Below are positions 38,692-45,629 of a stretch of 64,000 bases of DNA, one piece after another. Source of the stretch: Acidobacteriota bacterium (GTDB lineage: Bacteria; Acidobacteriota; Holophagae; Holophagales; Holophagaceae); assembly GCA_016195985.1 (NCBI GenBank), contig JACPYP010000011.1, positions 434,001-498,000 of the forward strand, written 5' to 3'. How positions within the stretch are numbered: position 1 is the first letter of the stretch; each line of letters begins with the position of its first letter. The notes beneath the pieces are model-generated. The model was given only the letters and a program-made list of their open reading frames with translations, was not told the DNA's origin and made no database searches. Made by a program: the position numbers and the translations under genes.

Positions 38692-39876
38692 TCAGATCCC
38701 CAGGCGCGATTGGTAGGTGGACAGATCCTTGTCGCCTCTTCCGCTGAGCCCCAGCAGGACGGAGGCGACGCCTTCGGCGGCGAGCTGCGGCAGCAGGGCC
38801 AAGGCGTGGCTGCTTTCCAAGGCCGGCAGGATGCCCTCGCTTTCGCAGAGCAGGCGCGCGCCCGCGAGCGCCTGCTCGTCGGAGGCCCGCCGCACGTCGA
38901 CCTGGCCGTCCAGGGCCAGGGCCGCCAACTCGGGGCCCAGCGCCGGATAGTCCAACCCCGCGCTGATGCTGGCGGTCTCGGCGGTATGGCCGTGGTCATC
39001 CTGCAGCAGCAGCGTCTTGCAGCCGTGCAGCACGCCCATGCGGCCGCCATCCAGCCGCGCGGCATGTTCTCCCAAGGCCATGCCGTGGCCGCCCGCCTCC
39101 ACCGCGACGCGGCGCAACCCATCGCCCAGGAAGGGCACCAGCAGGCCCAGGCCGTTGCTCCCGCCGCCTGCGCAGGCGATCACCACTTCGGGCAGGGCGC
39201 CGGATTGCTCCAGAACCTGGGCCCTGGCCTCTTCGCCAATGACGGTCTGGAAGCTGCGCACCAGGGTGGGAAAGGGATGGGGCCCCAGGGCCGAGCCCAG
39301 GATGTAGTGGGCCTTGTCGCAGCGGCCCGCCCAGGCCCGCAGGGCCTCATTCACGGCCTCCTTGAGGGTGCCCTGCCCCGCCTCCACCGGCACCACCTTC
39401 GCGCCGAAGAGACGCATGCGCGCCACGTTCGGCGCCTGCCGCGCCATGTCCGTGACTCCCATGTACACGGTGCAGTCCAGCCCCAGGCGCGCGCAGGCCG
39501 CCGCCGTGGCCACGCCGTGCTGGCCCGCGCCCGTTTCGGCGATGACCTCCGCCTTGCCCATGCGCCGGGCCAGCAGGGCCTGGGCCAAAGCGTTATTGAT
39601 CTTGTGGGCGCCGGTGTGGGTGAGATCCTCCCGCTTGAGGAAAAGAGCCCTCAGTCCAAGCTTCGCGGCGAGCCTTGGGGCCGGGGTGAGAGGCGTGGGA
39701 CGCCCCACGAAGTGCCGCAACTCCGCTTTCAGCTCGGCCTGAAAAGCCGAATCTTCGATCGCGCCGCGGAAGCTCGCCTCCAGGTCCAACAGCGGTTGCA
39801 TCAGGGTTTCGGGGGCATAGCACCCGCCCAGGGCCTGGGCCCCGAACCGGGTGGGAAGGCTGAAGCCAGCAGTCAT
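38692..39876 (-). CDS. trpB: Tryptophan synthase beta subunit
   Basis: PLP enzyme joining indole and serine to tryptophan. 394 residues, standard. PLP lysine Lys92 in HTGAHKINNAL, ETGAGQHGVATA, the phosphate-binding CAGGGSNGLG and the C-terminal SGRGDKDLSTY are all as in TrpB1. ATG 39876 overlaps the trpF stop by four bases. No sign of the TrpB2 variant. Confidence 0.97.
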   Translation of the reverse strand: MTAGFSLPTRFGAQALGGCYAPETLMQPLLDLEASFRGAIEDSAFQAELKAELRHFVGRPTPLTPAPRLAAKLGLRALFLKREDLTHTGAHKINNALAQALLARRMGKAEVIAETGAGQHGVATAAACARLGLDCTVYMGVTDMARQAPNVARMRLFGAKVVPVEAGQGTLKEAVNEALRAWAGRCDKAHYILGSALGPHPFPTLVRSFQTVIGEEARAQVLEQSGALPEVVIACAGGGSNGLGLLVPFLGDGLRRVAVEAGGHGMALGEHAARLDGGRMGVLHGCKTLLLQDDHGHTAETASISAGLDYPALGPELAALALDGQVDVRRASDEQALAGARLLCESEGILPALESSHALALLPQLAAEGVASVLLGLSGRGDKDLSTYQSRLGI

Positions 39877-40493
39877 GGAAACTCCACGTGATGGGCGGTC
39901 CGGATGTAATCCCGCACTTTGTCCTGGTCTTTCACGCCAGGCTCAGCCTCCAGGCGGCTGGCGGCGTCCACCCCGCGGAACTGCGCCCGCGCGGCGGCTG
40001 GAAGGAAATTCAGCCGGCCCGCCAGGTTCGCGGCGTCGAGACCGCCCGCCAGCAGGAAGGGCCCGGGCGGGGGAAAGCCCATGGCATGGGCCTGCCCCGA
40101 TCCTCCGGCCACGCCGGTGGCCCCGGGGCTGGGCTCCCAGAGGTAGAGGTCGGCGGTCACTGGCGATTGACCCGCCTCGTCCGCCCAGGGCAGCAGCACA
40201 AAGAGCCCCGCTGACCGCAGCAGGCGCGCGCCGGCTTCCCGCTGGTCCGGAGGCAGGTGGGGCTGCACCCGCTGGAAGCCGTGCCGCCGGGCCAAGGCCA
40301 GGATGGGTTCGGCGGTATCGGCCACCTGCACCAGCACGGCGCGGTCCAGGAAGGGCGAAGCTACCGAGAGATCGCCGCAGTGCCTTGGGCTGGGCGGATG
40401 CACGACGAAACCCAGCAAATCCGCACCCTGATCCGCGGCGAAGGCGGCGTCCTCGGCGCGGACCAGGCCGCAAACTTTGGCGAGGCTGGTCAC
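39873..40493 (-). CDS. trpF: Phosphoribosylanthranilate isomerase
   Basis: Amadori rearrangement of phosphoribosylanthranilate. 206 residues; starts with the conserved AKVCGLVRAEDA (catalytic Cys8 in KVCG), LLGFVVHPPSPRH, and near the end LLAGGLDAANLAG and FRGVDAASRLEAEPGVKD with the catalytic Asp and phosphate loop. ATG 40493 overlaps trpC by four bases and its stop overlaps trpB by four bases. Confidence 0.95.
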   Translation of the reverse strand: MTSLAKVCGLVRAEDAAFAADQGADLLGFVVHPPSPRHCGDLSVASPFLDRAVLVQVADTAEPILALARRHGFQRVQPHLPPDQREAGARLLRSAGLFVLLPWADEAGQSPVTADLYLWEPSPGATGVAGGSGQAHAMGFPPPGPFLLAGGLDAANLAGRLNFLPAAARAQFRGVDAASRLEAEPGVKDQDKVRDYIRTAHHVEFP

Positions 40494-41323
40494 GACACCC
40501 CCGTGCGCAGCTCAGCGAGGGCCCGGGCCAGGAAGTCTTTGGGATCCGCGCTGCGCATGAGCGCCTCGCCGATGAGCACCGCGTCGAAACCGGCGCGCAG
40601 GGCGGCGCGGGCGTCCTCCGGTGTGGCCAGGCCTGATTCGCGGATGAGCACCGCTTCTGGAAAAGCCCGCCGCAGCGGGGCCGCCGTGGGTTCCCCCAGG
40701 GTGAAGGTGGAGAGGTCGCGGGCGTTGATGCCCACCAGCCGCGCCTGAGCCTCTTGGGCAAAGCCCACTTCCGTGAGGTCGTGCAGTTCCACCAGGGGCT
40801 CCAGCCCCCGGGCCCGGGCGGCTTCGGCGAAGGCCGCCGTATGTCCTTTCAGCACCCGGGCGATGAGGAGCACGGCCTCGGCGCCGGTGCCCTCCGCTTC
40901 AGCCAGCTGCGATTCCGCGATCACGAAGCCCTTGTAGAGCCTCGGCAAGCCCAGCTCCTCCGCGGCCCGCAGATCCTTCGTGGATCCCTTGAAGTAAGCG
41001 GGTTCCGCCAGGATGGAGAGGGCCGAGGCTCCACCTTCCTGGTAGGCCCGCAGTTGGGGCAGCAGCGGCGTGCCCTTGGCGAAGGGCCCCAGGGAGGGCG
41101 AAGCCTGCTTGTATTCCGCGATGACGGCACCGCCGCGCTGGGCGGCATCCCGGCGGAGCGCGGATTCGAAAGCCCCCGGGCCGGACAGGGCCCGGCGAAG
41201 GGGGGGCGCGGCCTTCAGCTGGGCCAGGCGGGCCAGTTCGGACACCAGCACCTTCTGCAGGTGGGAGGTGGCGCTGAGGCCCGTGCCGTGGACGAGGGAG
41301 GCGGGATCGGGAAGGCGGTTCAT
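40490..41323 (-). CDS. trpC: Indole-3-glycerol-phosphate synthase
   Basis: Closes the indole ring. 277 residues, a normal single-domain TrpC. AVIAEYKQASPSLG carries the catalytic Glu-Lys, followed by ALSILAEPAYFKGS, YKGFVIAESQLAEA, LVGINARDLSTF and LIGEALMRSADP, the standard loop order. Separate from trpF rather than fused as in E. coli. Four-base overlaps with trpD and trpF. Confidence 0.96.
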   Translation of the reverse strand: MNRLPDPASLVHGTGLSATSHLQKVLVSELARLAQLKAAPPLRRALSGPGAFESALRRDAAQRGGAVIAEYKQASPSLGPFAKGTPLLPQLRAYQEGGASALSILAEPAYFKGSTKDLRAAEELGLPRLYKGFVIAESQLAEAEGTGAEAVLLIARVLKGHTAAFAEAARARGLEPLVELHDLTEVGFAQEAQARLVGINARDLSTFTLGEPTAAPLRRAFPEAVLIRESGLATPEDARAALRAGFDAVLIGEALMRSADPKDFLARALAELRTGVS

Positions 41324-42351
41324 GACTGCACCTGGAGGGTGAAAGGGAGCGTGAAGCCCTGGTCGAGGCGGAGGCGCACCTCGCGCAGGGTGCCGGCCAG
41401 GCCGTCGAGGCCGTGATCCCGATGCAGGTGCAGGCCCAGGGCCGCCTGCAGGGCCACGGCATCGGCCACGGCGGGACGGAAATCCGCGTGGGCCGCGCCG
41501 CCGAACAGGCCGCGGGCCACGGCCAGCGCTTCGGCGCGGTCATGGACGCGCAGGGCGTGCCGGGCCGGCGGCGTGAGGCCCAGTTCCCGGGGCACCAGCA
41601 CCTGGGGCGCGGCCACCCGGCCCTCCCGCGCGGCGAGGACCGTCGTGGGCCCTTCGATGGAGGCTTCATCGAGGCCCTTCCCTTCCGCGTCCTTGCCGTG
41701 GATCACGAAGGCCCGGCGCAGGCTGGGCCGGCGCGCCAGGGCCCCGGCCATGGGCGCGGCGAGCTCCTCGCGGGCCACGCCCAGCAGTTGCAGGGGCGGT
41801 TGGCCGGGATTCAGCAGCGGCCCCAGCAGGTTGAAGATGGTGGGAATGCCCAGGCGCTTGCGGATCTCCCTCAGGCGGCCCAGCAGCGGGTGGTAGGCCG
41901 GGGCGAACAGGAAGGCGAAGCAGCGGTCCGCGAGATCGGCGGACAGGTCGGTGCTGGCCCGGGCCAGGTCGTAGCCCAGGGCCTCCAGCAGGTCCGCGCT
42001 GCCGCAGACGCCCGTGGCCGCGCGGTTGCCGTGCTTGACGACGGGCACGCCGAAATGAGGCAGCAGCAGGGCCGCCAGCGTGCTGAGGTTGGCGGTGGAG
42101 GAACCGTCGCCGCCCGTGCCGCAGGTGTCGAGCGCATCCTCAGGCACCGGCGGGAAGGGCATCGCCACGTCGGACAGGGCGTCCGCGAAGGCCGCCAGCT
42201 CGTGCGCTTCGGGCACCCGCTGGGCCAGCAGGGCCAGGCAGGCGCCCACCAGCAGGGCGTCCGTGTCCTGGTCGATGAAGATGCGCATCAGCTCCGAGGC
42301 CGTATCGGCCGGGAGCGGACGGATGGGGTTGTGGGTGGTGAGCAGGGTCAT
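41320..42351 (-). CDS. trpD: Anthranilate phosphoribosyltransferase
   Basis: Transfers phosphoribose to anthranilate. 343 residues. DTCGTGGDGSSTANLST is the PRPP loop, VVKHGNRAATGVCGSADLLEALG the anthranilate region, and FLFAPAYHPLLGRLREIRKRLG with IFNLLGPLLNP complete the family set. Start ATG 42351 overlaps the trpG stop by four bases. It is a stand-alone gene, not fused to trpG. Confidence 0.96.
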   Translation of the reverse strand: MTLLTTHNPIRPLPADTASELMRIFIDQDTDALLVGACLALLAQRVPEAHELAAFADALSDVAMPFPPVPEDALDTCGTGGDGSSTANLSTLAALLLPHFGVPVVKHGNRAATGVCGSADLLEALGYDLARASTDLSADLADRCFAFLFAPAYHPLLGRLREIRKRLGIPTIFNLLGPLLNPGQPPLQLLGVAREELAAPMAGALARRPSLRRAFVIHGKDAEGKGLDEASIEGPTTVLAAREGRVAAPQVLVPRELGLTPPARHALRVHDRAEALAVARGLFGGAAHADFRPAVADAVALQAALGLHLHRDHGLDGLAGTLREVRLRLDQGFTLPFTLQVQS

Positions 42352-42926
42352 GGGTGTCGTTCCAGGGCGAGCCGAAGGAAGTTGGCGAGCATGGCGGGGC
42401 CGTCGGGAGTGAGGATGCTTTCGGGATGGAACTGCACGCCCCAGCGGGGCAGCTGGCAGTGCTCCATGGCCATGATTTCTCCGCCGGGACTGCGGCCCGT
42501 GACGCGCCAGCAACCGGGCAGCGAAGCCGGATCCACGATGAGGCTGTGGTAGCGGCCCACGGGCAGGCCCGCGGGCAGGCCCTGGAAGAGGCCCGCGCCC
42601 TCGTGCTCCAGCGGCGTGGCCTCGCCGTGCAGCGGTTCCACGGCGCGGGTAACCCGGCCTCCGCTGGCCGCCGCCAGGGCCTGGTGGCCCAGGCAGACAC
42701 CAAGGAGGGGCACCGCCCAATCCGAGGCGCCGAGGGCCATGTGGGCGAGGTTTTCCGTGGGATGGCCGGGGCCCGGCGAAAGCACCACGGCCCGGGGGTT
42801 CAGGGCCTGGGCCTGGGCCAGTGTGATGGCGTCGTGGCGGACTACCTTCGTTTCGGCGCCGAGGGTCTCGAAGGCCTGCACCAGGTTGTAGGTGAAGGAA
42901 TCCAACGCATCGATCAAGAGAATCAT
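42348..42926 (-). CDS. trpG: Anthranilate synthase glutamine amidotransferase subunit
   Basis: 192 residues, class I glutamine amidotransferase. MILLIDALDSFTYNLVQAFE is the typical start; GVCLGHQALA carries the nucleophile Cys78; GVQFHPESILT carries the His-Glu pair. SPGPGHPTE is the oxyanion loop. It supplies ammonia to TrpE and might also serve para-aminobenzoate synthesis, since no separate pabA is in the window. Overlaps trpE and trpD by four bases each. Confidence 0.95.
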   Translation of the reverse strand: MILLIDALDSFTYNLVQAFETLGAETKVVRHDAITLAQAQALNPRAVVLSPGPGHPTENLAHMALGASDWAVPLLGVCLGHQALAAASGGRVTRAVEPLHGEATPLEHEGAGLFQGLPAGLPVGRYHSLIVDPASLPGCWRVTGRSPGGEIMAMEHCQLPRWGVQFHPESILTPDGPAMLANFLRLALERHP

Positions 42927-44332
42927 CGGGAGGCTCCGGGCAGCTGCACCCCAAGGGCCTGGGCGATGGCGCCCAGCTTGTGCAGGGTTTCGACATACTC
43001 GGCCTCGGGCCTGGAGGCGCGCACCACGCCGGCACCTGCCTGGATGTGGGCCGCGCCACCAGCGTAGACGGCCGTGCGCAGGATGAGGGCCGTGTCCAGC
43101 ACGCCGTCGGCGCCCAGCCGCAGCAGCACGCCTCCGTAGGGGCCGCGCACTTCGCCTTCCAGCTCGGCGATGCGCTGGCAGGCGCGGAGTTTCGGCGCGC
43201 CGCTGACGGTGCCCGCCGGGAAGGCCGCCGCCAGCACGTCCAGCGCGTCGACGCCGGCCTTCAACTGGGCCTTCACGGTGGTGGTGAGGTGCAGCACGTG
43301 GCTGGTGCGCTGGAGGGCCAGGGGCCGCTCGACATGCACGCCGCCAGGGACGCCCACGCGGCCCAGGTCGTTGCGGGCGAGATCCACCAGCATCTGGTGC
43401 TCGGCCAATTCCTTGGGATCGCGCTTCAGGGCCTCGAAGCGGCGGGCATCCTCCTCGGCGGTGGCGCCGCGGGGCACGGTGCCCGCGATGGGCAGGGTTT
43501 CGGCTTCGCCGCCCTGGACGCGCACCAGCATTTCCGGCGAGGCGCCCACCAGGGCGAAGTCCTCCCACTCCAGCAGAAATCCGTAGGGGCTGGGGTTGAG
43601 GCGGCGCAGGCGGCGGTAGGCCTCCAGCGGCGGGGGCGGATCCTCGATCCGGAAGCGCTGGCTGGGCACCAGCTGGTAGATGTCGCCGTCGAGGATCAGC
43701 TCCTGGGCAGCGGCCACGGCGCCTTCGTAGGCTTCGCGGGCCATGAGAGCCTTCGCCACCGGCCTGGCCTGGCCGGGGCCGGGGTCCTTGACGCCTTCCA
43801 GCAGCCGCCGCCTCAGGTCTGCCAGGCGCGCGAATCCGGCTTCCGGGCTCGCGTCCAGGGTCTGCAGCTCCGCCACCTGGTGCAGGTGGTCGAAGACCAG
43901 CGCCGTGTCGAAGCGCCGCACCCAGAGCCCCGGCAGGCCCAAGGTGTTCCGGGCGGGAAGCGGCAGGGTAGGCTCCAGGGCCCCCATGGCCTCGAAGCCC
44001 AGGTAGCCCGCGCAGCCCACGCCCACGGGCAGGGCTTCGCGCAGGGCCGGGAGGGCGGCGGCGGAATCGTGCAGGGCATCCGCAGGCGCCTCCCCCGCCA
44101 GGCCGCGCAGGGCCTCCACCCAACCGGTGGCGGGTGCGGGCAGGCGGCATTCACCCGGGCCTTCCAGCAGCACGAAGCTGTGACGTCCCACCCGCTCGCC
44201 CTGGTCGCAGGATTCCAGCAGCAGGCTGGCCCCGGCTGGACGAAGGGCGAGATAGGCCGCCAGGGGCGTGAGCAGGTCCGCCGGGAGGGGATGTCGGATC
44301 AGGTGCATGGTCAGGTGCGTGGTCAGGTGCAT
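42923..44332 (-). CDS. trpE: Anthranilate synthase component I
   Basis: Makes anthranilate from chorismate with ammonia from TrpG. About 469 residues. Feedback-site residues LLESCD near the N-terminus, then PYGFLLEW, GASPEMLVRV, PIAGTVPRG, EHQMLVDLARNDLGRV, AAFPAGTVSGAPKLRA and QAGAGVVRAS, all standard. The start falls in a small 12-bp tandem repeat giving MHLTTHLTMHLI, so ATG 44332 or 44308 may be used; 44332 is taken. Transcription enters through the trpL attenuator. Confidence 0.94.
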   Translation of the reverse strand: MHLTTHLTMHLIRHPLPADLLTPLAAYLALRPAGASLLLESCDQGERVGRHSFVLLEGPGECRLPAPATGWVEALRGLAGEAPADALHDSAAALPALREALPVGVGCAGYLGFEAMGALEPTLPLPARNTLGLPGLWVRRFDTALVFDHLHQVAELQTLDASPEAGFARLADLRRRLLEGVKDPGPGQARPVAKALMAREAYEGAVAAAQELILDGDIYQLVPSQRFRIEDPPPPLEAYRRLRRLNPSPYGFLLEWEDFALVGASPEMLVRVQGGEAETLPIAGTVPRGATAEEDARRFEALKRDPKELAEHQMLVDLARNDLGRVGVPGGVHVERPLALQRTSHVLHLTTTVKAQLKAGVDALDVLAAAFPAGTVSGAPKLRACQRIAELEGEVRGPYGGVLLRLGADGVLDTALILRTAVYAGGAAHIQAGAGVVRASRPEAEYVETLHKLGAIAQALGVQLPGASR

Positions 44333-44433
44333 GGTGTCGCGCCTTGGAGAAAGCCTCAGACCGGTTTGGCCGGGATGGGGCGTGGGGGCCCGGGGGTGTG
44401 CGGGAAGCGCGGAACCACCGGAGAGCAATAACG

Positions 44434-44459
44434 AAAAAGCCCGACCATCAGGTCGGGCT
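44434..44459 (-). terminator. trp attenuator terminator hairpin
   Basis: Nine-bp perfect stem AGCCCGACC/GGTCGGGCT with loop TGAT, then TTTT on the minus strand, 26 bases after the leader-peptide stop and about 100 bases ahead of trpE. Its 5' arm overlaps CCGAGCCC (44462-44455), which can pair instead with GGGCTCGG (44515-44508) just after the Trp codons. That gives mutually exclusive antiterminator and terminator. Confidence 0.85.
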
Positions 44460-44484
44460 CGGAAGGTCCGGGGTGGCAGGGCCG

Positions 44485-44577
44485 CTAGGCCTCGCGCAAG
44501 GAGCCGTCCGAGCCCATGCGCCACCACCAAGCCTCGGAGGAGAGGCCCTGGCAGGGGACGGGGAAGGACAGCAGCAT
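44485..44577 (-). CDS. trpL: trp operon leader peptide with three consecutive Trp codons
   Basis: A 30-residue frame from ATG 44577 to TAG 44485, with ...SSEAWWWRMGSDG... : three adjacent TGG codons at 44529-44521. TCCGAG just before the Trp codons can pair with CTCGGA just after them (segments 1:2), and GGGCTCGG after them with CCGAGCCC in the terminator (2:3). This is the layout of ribosome-mediated transcription attenuation: with low charged tRNA-Trp the ribosome stalls on the codons, frees segment 2 and prevents the terminator. No clear ribosome site is seen; if the promoter at 44585-44613 is right, the message would start almost at the ATG, as in leaderless trpL of some alphaproteobacteria. 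Confidence 0.85.
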   Translation of the reverse strand: MLLSFPVPCQGLSSEAWWWRMGSDGSLREA

Positions 44578-44584
44578 GAAAGGG

Positions 44585-44613
44585 ATGAAACCCCAAGCCC
44601 CTGCCGTTGTCAA
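44585..44613 (-). promoter_or_regulatory. Candidate trp operon promoter
   Basis: Minus strand TTGACA (44613-44608), a perfect -35, then 17 bases and TTTCAT (44590-44585), a weak -10. Start of transcription would be within a few bases of the leader ATG. With trpL and its attenuator this fills the 358-base gap between trpE and the divergent membrane-protein gene. Confidence 0.5.
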
Positions 44614-44690: not shown

Positions 44691-45629
44691 ATGGCCATGG
44701 AACCCACCGAACGCCCTATCACCATTCAGATTTCCGAGGAGGATCTGGCCCCCCGGGGGCCATGGTCCTTCCTGGCGTCCTCTCTGCCCGGAGGTTTCAC
44801 CCGCTGGGGCTGGGGGCTCATGGGGGGCTGGGTGCTCGCGGTGCTGGGCTCCACCCTGGGCTGGGCCGGCCACCTGCGCCGGGCCGCGGGCTGGAGCGCC
44901 CTGCCCAGCCACTGGGGCGAAAGCCTCAGCGCCCGCGACATCTGGGAACTGGTGGAGAACGGGGGGCTCAAGCATCGCCTCACCAATTCCCCCACCGTGC
45001 ACCTTTTCGCCCTCGGCATCATCGTGGTGCTCTGGTGCGGCTGGCGGATGCAGGCCGAGGAAGCCTCCCTGAAAGCCCGGCTCAGCTCCTGGCTGCTGGG
45101 CGCCCTGGATACAGTCCTCATCGGCTTCCTGCCCCTGGGCCTGGTGGCCTGGCTGGCGGATCTGTCCCTGGCCGGCCTGGGCGCTTCCGGCATCGAGGCC
45201 CTCGGCTGGATGGCCTTCTTCGGCCGCCCCCTGGTGTGGATGGGCCTCGTGGCGGCCCTCAACCTCCAGTGGTGGCTCTGCCGCCTGGGCCGCCTGGCAG
45301 GTCCCACCCGGGGCTACCGCACCCACTTGGCCGACTCCTTCCTGCGCCTCTGGTCCCATCCCATCCAGTGGGGCTTCATCACGATCGGCGGGGCGGCGCT
45401 CCGCGCGCTCCTGCCCTTCCTCGTCCTCCTGCTGGCTTGGCGCATGGGAGGCGGCACCACGTTCCGGGTCTGGCTGTTCCTGCTCCTCCAGCTGTTCGCC
45501 ACCGCCATCAACGGCTGGATCATGGGCTGGCTGCTGAGGGCGGCCGCCCAGTTCTGGTCCCACGACATCATCGTGCGGGATGCCCGCGCGGCCCTGAAGG
45601 AATCCGTCCGTGAAGCTCAAGCCCTGTAG
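44691..45629 (+). CDS. Integral membrane protein of unknown function
   Basis: 312 residues with about six hydrophobic segments (roughly 40-60, 105-120, 135-165, 175-200, 225-250, 265-290) and a charged N-terminal 30 residues. Contains LGTGG-free, Trp-rich loops; no family recognised. ATG 44691 (44697 also in frame). Its 3' end overlaps the start of the 5'-nucleotidase C-domain gene by 20 bases, so the three genes to 47409 look like one operon. A role in nucleotide salvage transport is possible only by association. Confidence 0.7.
   Translation: MAMEPTERPITIQISEEDLAPRGPWSFLASSLPGGFTRWGWGLMGGWVLAVLGSTLGWAGHLRRAAGWSALPSHWGESLSARDIWELVENGGLKHRLTNSPTVHLFALGIIVVLWCGWRMQAEEASLKARLSSWLLGALDTVLIGFLPLGLVAWLADLSLAGLGASGIEALGWMAFFGRPLVWMGLVAALNLQWWLCRLGRLAGPTRGYRTHLADSFLRLWSHPIQWGFITIGGAALRALLPFLVLLLAWRMGGGTTFRVWLFLLLQLFATAINGWIMGWLLRAAAQFWSHDIIVRDARAALKESVREAQAL

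Follow-up and report, generated by a model that had tools for sequence, protein, structure and literature searches.

A probable ribosome-mediated trp transcription attenuator with a leader peptide in Geothrix-like Holophagaceae

The classical model of the trp attenuator is that of Escherichia coli and other Proteobacteria, which is represented in Rfam by the family Trp_leader (RF00513). In the E. coli trp leader a Shine-Dalgarno (SD) sequence is present, and translation ends at a stop codon located between segments 1 and 2. Bacteroid-trp RNA (RF01692) is described as a cis-regulatory motif of Bacteroidetes (PMC2864571). It lies upstream of trp genes as well. In Sinorhizobium meliloti, the trpLE(G) system with its products rnTrpL and peTrpL has a transcript that begins with the trpL ATG (PMC7298713). 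A tally of the leader ORFs that neighbour genes in Acidobacteria is given in PMC4833913, where no trp attenuator is named for them. The initial annotation of the locus presented here knew of no description of such an attenuator for this phylum, and a literature search for trp attenuation in Acidobacteriota, which did not extend to the comparative study by Lopatovskaya et al. (2010), likewise found none; no Rfam family reached the gathering score in the window. The principle of attenuation is textbook knowledge, its setting in this phylum is little described, and a leaderless start has its precedent in S. meliloti.

The window analysed here is the whole 64-kb stretch G000:C18:434001-498000 of a 4.26 Mb assembly, in which the trp operon is very probably preceded by a ribosome-mediated transcription attenuator with a leader peptide, trpL, of a type that occurs in Geothrix-like Holophagaceae. 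As in the attenuators of E. coli and other Proteobacteria, a short ORF with tandem Trp codons and a predicted pair of mutually exclusive antiterminator and terminator structures lie upstream of trpE. Unlike the E. coli arrangement, the leader of the window has its stop codon 3' of segment 2, so that this segment is coding, and shows no SD sequence. With S. meliloti trpLE(G) the locus shares three consecutive Trp codons, the character of an attenuator of trpE(G) and, as a prediction, a transcript that begins with the ATG, but it belongs to another phylum, the leader has 30 aa compared with 14 aa there, the two peptides have by eye no likeness beyond WWW, and trans roles are known for S. meliloti only (PMC7298713). 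It also resembles the attenuators predicted for Corynebacterium and Streptomyces, with their leader ORF of double or triple UGG codons, GC-rich terminator and shared complementary triples, but again the phylum differs, and the triples are gGCC-rGCy-GGCC there and GGGCUCGGA / UCCGAGCCC / GGGCU here (PMC1262725). The attenuator reading is based on sequence elements, their conservation, compensatory changes and the promoter-to-ATG spacing, and from these we infer translation of trpL, its leaderless start, stalling, the dependence on Trp and the order of folding.

The operon has the gene order trpEGDCFB on the minus strand and lies 3' of the leader and its terminator. The identities of these six genes are based on NCBIfam profile matches, of which those of trpG (42348..42935), trpD (41320..42351) and trpB (38692..39876) scored over the curated cut-offs of TIGR00566, TIGR01245 and TIGR00263, respectively. 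The matches of trpE, encoding anthranilate synthase component I (42923..44332; best match TIGR00564, E 2.3e-118), trpC (40490..41323; best match NF001377, E 2e-55) and trpF (39873..40493; PRK01222-type matches, best E 6e-18) were under the curated cut-offs, and trpA was called by eye from the ORF list, after trpB on the same strand. The start of trpE is ambiguous, as a short repeat places in-frame ATGs at 44332 and 44308; the later start is suggested because most TrpE matches begin at residues 5-11. The TrpE of the window shares 90% identity with its counterpart in Geothrix limicola and 77-90% with the TrpE of 35 Holophagaceae-type loci, and judged by this identity the host would be a Geothrix-like member of the Holophagaceae, Acidobacteriota.

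As had been noticed at the outset, the leader carries 30 codons with three adjacent TGG codons. It extends over 44577-44485 of the minus strand, encodes MLLSFPVPCQGLSSEAWWWRMGSDGSLREA (codons ATG CTG CTG TCC TTC CCC GTC CCC TGC CAG GGC CTC TCC TCC GAG GCT TGG TGG TGG CGC ATG GGC TCG GAC GGC TCC TTG CGC GAG GCC TAG) and contains the three Trp codons, which are the predicted sensor and are kept in relatives, at 44529-44521. TrpE-bearing loci yielded 51 family sequences and, after removal of duplicates, 43 non-redundant Holophagaceae loci including the window, and a leader was found upstream of trpE in 43/43 of these; 41 leaders were called by an automatic pattern, and those of L017 and L018, which represent other genera of the family, by eye. 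Seven of the 42 loci found by TrpE come from other phyla (L067, L069-L074); they are omitted from the alignment, and the leader scan listed none for them. All 43 leaders are intact ORFs of 29-31 codons, which end in TAG (30), TGA (11) or TAA (2) and possess two (22) or three (21) Trp codons, the two of L017 being four codons apart. The claim that the TGG run is conserved thus holds for at least two Trp codons in 43/43, but a run of three is not required. Among the 40 genus leaders of equal length, the triplet reads WWW in 19, YWW in 8, WRW in 5, SWW in 5, WYW in 2 and WFW in 1, and its third codon is TGG in all 40.

Such a combination rarely arises by chance in this DNA. On both strands of the 64-kb window, trpL is the sole ORF in which clustered Trp codons are followed by a strong terminator, and when the whole window was shuffled 20 times with its dinucleotides kept, a single site of this kind turned up in three shuffles and none in the other 17. 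With a covariance model built on the leader there was one match per genome in 46/47 genus genomes, many of them in its training set, and the single genome that was missed is 58% complete. The model also matched 8 further family genomes (L017, L018 and L205-L210) and 54/93 class genomes altogether, again with many that had served for training; G158, which belongs to these 8, gave an additional weak match. The loci L205 (g3) and L206-L210 (g121), from two other genera, carry a WWW leader and a terminator in 6/6 cases, with 7-9 of the 9 core pairs of the antiterminator kept.

The leaders change at codon positions 1, 2 and 3 with rates of 0.233, 0.289 and 0.173, i.e. the third position has no excess, so the peptide as a whole gives no sign of protein-level constraint, and in the 43 leaders its conservation is visible at the Trp and stop codons only. 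Weak constraint of this kind is usual for leader peptides, and it gives no positive proof of translation. Together with the strongly conserved RNA helices, this could also be accommodated by a terminator/antiterminator switch that works without translation, such as a riboswitch, a T-box or a protein-bound leader, in which the Trp codons would be incidental. Such a switch would have to explain why at least two Trp codons are kept throughout the alignment while neighbouring codons change, why the ORF remains open although its stop varies, and why Trp-rich leaders recur in 12 further families of the phylum, and a leader upstream of ilvD is rich in Ile, Leu and Val. No Rfam family, T-box included, reached the gathering score in the 64-kb window, and the matches listed for the leader itself (E up to 10) were far below that score and contained no T-box or riboswitch; Bacteroid-trp RNA and RF00513 were absent from the matches in the window and at the leader. 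RF00513 matched 0/41 genus genomes and did match the E. coli positive control. We therefore regard a translation-independent switch as very unlikely, and a leader that senses Trp by its translation as the preferred reading.

This reading gains most from the two alternative helices. The 9-bp terminator with a T run before trpE, which overlaps the antiterminator as originally proposed, was recovered by a terminator scan and by the alignment as segment 3:4 (44434..44459), with the sequence AGCCCGACC-tgat-GGTCGGGCT at 44459-44438 and a T run that extends to 44434. The predicted antiterminator pairs GGGCTCGGA (44515-44507) with TCCGAGCCC (44463-44455), and the alignment extends segment 2 by CGGCTCC (44500..44515) and places segment 3, which overlaps the 5' arm of the terminator, at 44455..44469. 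Overall, the antiterminator GGGCUCGGA:UCCGAGCCC with its extension CGGCUCC against GGACC comprises 14 pairs; its segment 2 lies within the trpL ORF and in the window starts 14 nt downstream of Trp codon 1, counted from the first base of that codon. In the 43 sequences, 95.8% of the antiterminator cells are paired, compared with 16-61% in slid registers, and 99.0% of the terminator cells. One antiterminator pair is C-G in 30, U-A in 7 and U-G in 6 sequences, and the 7 two-sided cells of the antiterminator exceed the 2.1 found in shuffles, 0/500 of which were as high. A set of 30 sequences, picked by hand for diversity from 24 of the 43 family loci and 6 new ones, gave 95.2% paired cells with 6 two-sided cells for the antiterminator, and 98.6% (7-pair core) with 8 two-sided cells for the terminator. 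At least 499/500 shuffles were beaten by 3/5 measures of the antiterminator in both sets, and for the terminator by 3/5 measures in the 30 and 4/5 in the 43 sequences; all these counts of compensatory changes ignore the relatedness of the sequences. Two antiterminator measures, the pairs with two-sided change and the further pair types, fail against the shuffles (467 and 467/500 as high with 43 sequences, 442 and 433/500 with 30), because two-sided changes occur at one pair only. The predicted antiterminator and terminator are thus mutually exclusive and conserved with some compensatory change. Loss of the TGG run or of the pairings in relatives had been named as evidence that would speak against the original annotation; what the alignment of the trpE upstream regions shows is that the Trp codons are retained and that both helices are kept with compensatory changes. 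Its overall reading as a ribosome-type trp attenuator is therefore borne out by conservation and compensatory changes.

The four classical segments that had been described are not all retained, as antiterminator and terminator stand but another helix is the better candidate for the 1:2 pairing. The originally proposed 1:2 pairing of TCCGAG with CTCGGA (44538-44533 with 44512-44507) was dropped, as 81.3% of its cells are paired without any two-sided change; its outer two pairs are each broken in 22/42 sequences, and the inner four persist in almost every sequence, largely via G-U. RNAalifold proposed instead a seven-pair helix of GCUGUCC (44572-44566), which extends from the last base of codon 2 to the end of codon 4, with GGACGGC (44509-44503), which overlaps segment 2. 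In this helix 96.7% of the cells are paired, two pairs have two-sided changes (0/500 shuffles as high), and 4/5 measures beat 500/500 shuffles, the covariation score being reached by 31/500. It appears from the alignment to be the better candidate for the 1:2 pairing.

Taken together, these elements suggest the following course of events. Transcription would start at or within 1-2 nt of the trpL ATG, and ribosomes would load at the 5' end of the mRNA. When charged tRNA-Trp is scarce, the ribosome would halt once its A site holds Trp codon 1 (or 2), with its 3' edge just before segment 2, which would pair with segment 3 once this is made and thereby take up the 5' arm of the terminator, so that the polymerase reads into trpEGDCFB. 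When Trp is plentiful, the ribosome would pass segment 2 and stop at the UAG between segments 2 and 3, keeping them apart sterically, and after its release segment 1 would fold onto GGACGGC, while the free segment 3 would form the terminator.

Folding of the leader was modelled in the respective ribosome states, with masked and nascent RNA at 37 C and with free 5' RNA at 30 C, in both cases with an assumed ribosome footprint. The region folds better than 199/200 shuffles (z -2.90). When a stalled ribosome is represented by masking the RNA up to 14 nt from the start of the first Trp codon, the antiterminator measure has a mean of 0.70 and is above 0.5 in 38/43 leaders, and in the window it is 0.94 with a terminator of 0.16. 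In this masked state the terminator mean is 0.57, and it lies above the antiterminator in 21/43 leaders, chiefly ones whose triplet does not open with Trp; the two measures are partly compatible with each other. Leaders whose triplet lacks this first Trp, in which the first stall occurs one codon later, have antiterminator values of 0.54-0.64 and terminator values of 0.88-0.98. In the window, stalling at the second and third Trp codons lowers the antiterminator to 0.64 and 0.42, with the terminator at 0.88 and 1.00, respectively. If the 5' RNA of the stalled state is left free, the values are 0.49 and 0.60, respectively. The modelled spacing thus fits a stalled ribosome that leaves segment 2 free in the window, and it fits worse where the first Trp is triplet codon 2, always with the assumed footprint.

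With the ribosome at the stop codon and the remaining RNA free, the antiterminator averages 0.03 and the terminator 0.96; we cite this fold, as the masked fold of the stop-codon state (terminator >0.9 in 43/43) omits segment 2 by construction. The full-length RNA without a ribosome also favours the terminator (mean 0.91; antiterminator 0.08), with L054, L055 and L018 as exceptions. Nascent RNA that ends before segment 4 favours the antiterminator without any ribosome (mean 0.96), and in these nascent equilibrium folds GCUGUCC:GGACGGC loses to it. Segment 1 would therefore oppose segment 2 only kinetically, or else the terminating ribosome would do so sterically. A steric block by the ribosome at the stop codon is plausible with the assumed footprint, since the end of segment 2 lies 19 nt 5' of the stop codon and the start of segment 3 lies 21 nt 3' of it, which would put the ribosome between the two.

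Termination would yield a structured RNA of ~145 nt, and with rnTrpL/peTrpL of S. meliloti there is a precedent (PMC7298713) for a trpL that serves mainly as the source of a small RNA or peptide acting in trans, in which case termination itself would not be regulated by Trp. We consider it extremely unlikely that this is the main function here, as an antiterminator that overlaps the terminator and is kept with compensatory change would be needless for a trans function alone. A role in trans and attenuation are compatible and not mutually exclusive, so that regulated termination, as the preferred reading, leaves room for both.

The start of the leader probably differs from what is found in E. 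coli. A -35 hexamer TTGACA (44608..44613, minus strand), which matches the consensus and is present in 43/43 aligned relatives, is predicted 17 nt from a -10-like hexamer TTTCAT (44585..44590), and the leader ATG follows 7 nt after the latter. This spacing between hexamer and ATG is 7 nt in 38 of the 43 loci, 6 nt in 3 and 9 nt in L017, while in L065 the pattern leaves it undefined, and in six further loci it is 7 nt as read by eye, the hexamer being TGAGAT in five of them and CAGACT in L205. An SD-like 4-mer precedes the leader ATG in 2/43 loci. The pattern TTGACA-N16..19-TTTSAT-N5..8-ATG occurs once in the genome, namely at trpL. A promoter scan with a consensus -10 found no promoter at trpL, which is explained by the lack of an A at position 2 of TTTCAT; the predicted promoter is assigned by its conservation, as the -10 hexamer is far from consensus. 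With the conserved TTGACA, a -10 at 6-7 nt from the ATG in 41/43 loci and the scarcity of SD-like 4-mers, it is probable that the trpL mRNA is leaderless and starts at the ATG or 1-2 nt from it. Leaderless genes have been predicted to make up 9.7-19.4% in three Acidobacteria genomes (PMC3160421).

The same attenuator could also be initiated in the ordinary leadered way, if transcription started further upstream or another start codon were used, and the weak match of the -10 hexamer would be in line with this. In addition, a GGGG run is found upstream of the ATG in 25/43 loci, mostly just before the -10 hexamer, which was excluded from the SD count, and among the leaders of other genera or families 6 of 23 that were read have an SD-like 4- or 5-mer (G058, G109, G002, G032 and G100 of f5, and the same-family G097). 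However, in the 43 loci no in-frame ATG, GTG or TTG before the Trp codons was found to be preceded by GGAG, GAGG or AGGA, and this adds to the constant TTGACA, the narrow -10 spacing, which recurs in the six further loci, and the rare SD-like 4-mers. A similar layout, TTGAC[AT]-17-NANACT-8-ATG, moreover recurs in 10/10 ilv leaders, which makes the leaderless reading slightly likelier. We consequently regard leadered initiation as unlikely and continue with the leaderless start.

This ilv leader belongs to a second putative attenuator on the plan of trp, which precedes ilvD-ilvB in the same genome but outside the window (G000:C18:554789-555034, minus strand; L221:1890-2135). It has the arrangement TTGACA-17-GAAACT-8-ATG, followed by an ORF of 45 codons that is rich in Ile, Leu and Val, MTPHHLNHLAAAAISPASVGPAVRLVVGLVTIPAVLIISGEVGAP, and by the terminator GGCCCCGCACC...GCGGGGCC-TTTT; the genes 3' of it are ilvD, called by eye, and ilvB (TIGR00118). 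In the predicted fold (z -2.16), GAGGUGGGGGCC, which encodes the end of the peptide, pairs with the 5' arm of the terminator, which makes the last codons of this leader the putative source of its antiterminator. The ilv leader is probably leaderless as well. A DNA search with the ilv leader matched 12/47 genus genomes, 10 of them strongly, and all ten strong matches, when read, had an Ile/Leu/Val-rich leader whose ATG stands 8 nt after NANACT, which in turn is 17 nt from TTGACA or TTGACT. The other 35/47 gave no match in this DNA search, which is no proof of absence. Ile/Leu/Val-rich leaders were also found in G142 and G106, and the diverged leader MPPVSPHADAIPTTVVGRIVVITGLPGLVLRLTG before ilvB of G142 had been missed by the DNA search. 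A terminator scan found no ilv-type leader in the stretches taken from G053, G150, G201, G200 and G202; it misses some, since G150 is among the ten strong matches. Of the ilvB loci that were read, with the ilvB-type loci L188-L191 left out, 3/10 have a terminator, and at hisG a strong terminator was absent within ~600 nt upstream in 13/13 genus loci.

Outside the genus, a scan of the phylum looked for ORFs in which two Trp codons fall into a stretch of four codons and behind which a strong terminator stands; it was successful before 29/94 trpE-like Acidobacteriota loci, in 13/40 families (12 besides that of the window). The 94 were taken from the 140 genomes with a TrpE match at E 1e-40 (156 less 14 of the genus and those of L017 and L018), weaker and unlisted matches being left out and trpE not being separated from paralogues. 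The same scan gave 0/94 on the reverse strand and 0-1/94 in each of 10 shuffles. Any strong terminator was present at 34 loci, 29 of which have the Trp-rich ORF, and 65/94 loci were without a match, five of them despite a strong terminator. If Trp is swapped for another amino acid, the scan gives 1-7 matches for C, M, F, Y, H, K, Q, N, D, E and I and 9-24 for P, L, V, T, A, S, G and R, so it is the shuffle and reverse-strand controls that carry the claim for the phylum. A segment after the Trp codons that is complementary to the 5' arm of the terminator beats the shuffles (p<0.05) in 13/29 leaders and fails in 16/29. From these scans, Trp-leader attenuation looks common, but not universal, in Acidobacteriota. 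The leaders of two genomes, G006 and G060 (L019, L134), end with ...PYYTYYWWFKRVGL and ...PRYYYWWYMRVGL, i.e. with Tyr runs directly 5' of the Trp pair, and may thus also sense tyrosine.

The start regions were read in 23/29 of these leaders, with start codons chosen by hand, and the six SD-like cases mentioned above (L091, L088, L021, L022, L118, L109) are unlike Geothrix in this respect. The probably leaderless Geothrix leaders and the SD-led leaders of G097 and f5 would thereby offer a natural test case for the influence of the initiation mode on attenuation. The probable leaderless start, a segment 2 inside the ORF with the stop codon downstream, and a system that reaches beyond the genus are what the present comparison adds to the initial annotation. 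One may go further and assume a leaderless plan of amino-acid attenuators across the Holophagaceae (trp in at least four genera, ilv in part of the genus) with segment 2 within the ORF, in which the loading of ribosomes at the 5' end is sensed too, and with Trp-leader attenuation, leaderless as well as SD-led, as a major control of trp in Acidobacteriota; this joint reading we put forward tentatively, as it is rather doubtful that all of its parts hold. If it were true, segment 1 would lie just behind a 5'-terminal AUG, so that the initiating ribosome itself masks the protector arm, and a ribosome at the stop codon would hold segment 2 apart from segment 3; the switch would then respond to the loading of ribosomes at the 5' end in addition to tRNA charging. 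The trp leader described here, the ilv leader and the 29/94 trpE-like loci suggest that a common soil phylum seems to control amino-acid genes by ribosome stalling.

With respect to other control of the operon, a search for TrpR (PF01371) gave 0 matches in the genome of the window, and TrpR-like repressors (PF01371) occur in 3/15 genus genomes (L155, L156, L157), so a second layer of trp control may come and go within the genus. Divergent to the operon, a gene on the plus strand (44691-45629) appears hydrophobic by eye and had 0 NCBIfam matches. The block CATCAAACCACA, which adjoins the trp -35 element and is common to many genus loci, may be part of the promoter of this gene. Finally, the spacer between the trp terminator and trpE (window 44340-44433) is a dispersed repeat with 21 matches in its own genome, including the query itself, some of which form arrays with a spacing of ~80 bp (C14:190163-190392, C18:337546-337743, C30:375920-376197). 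Its 16-mer GGTGGTTCCGCGCTTC is also present in the trpL-trpE spacers of L041, L049, L051 and L057, and from these copies it appears that a REP-like element may have settled between the attenuator and trpE.
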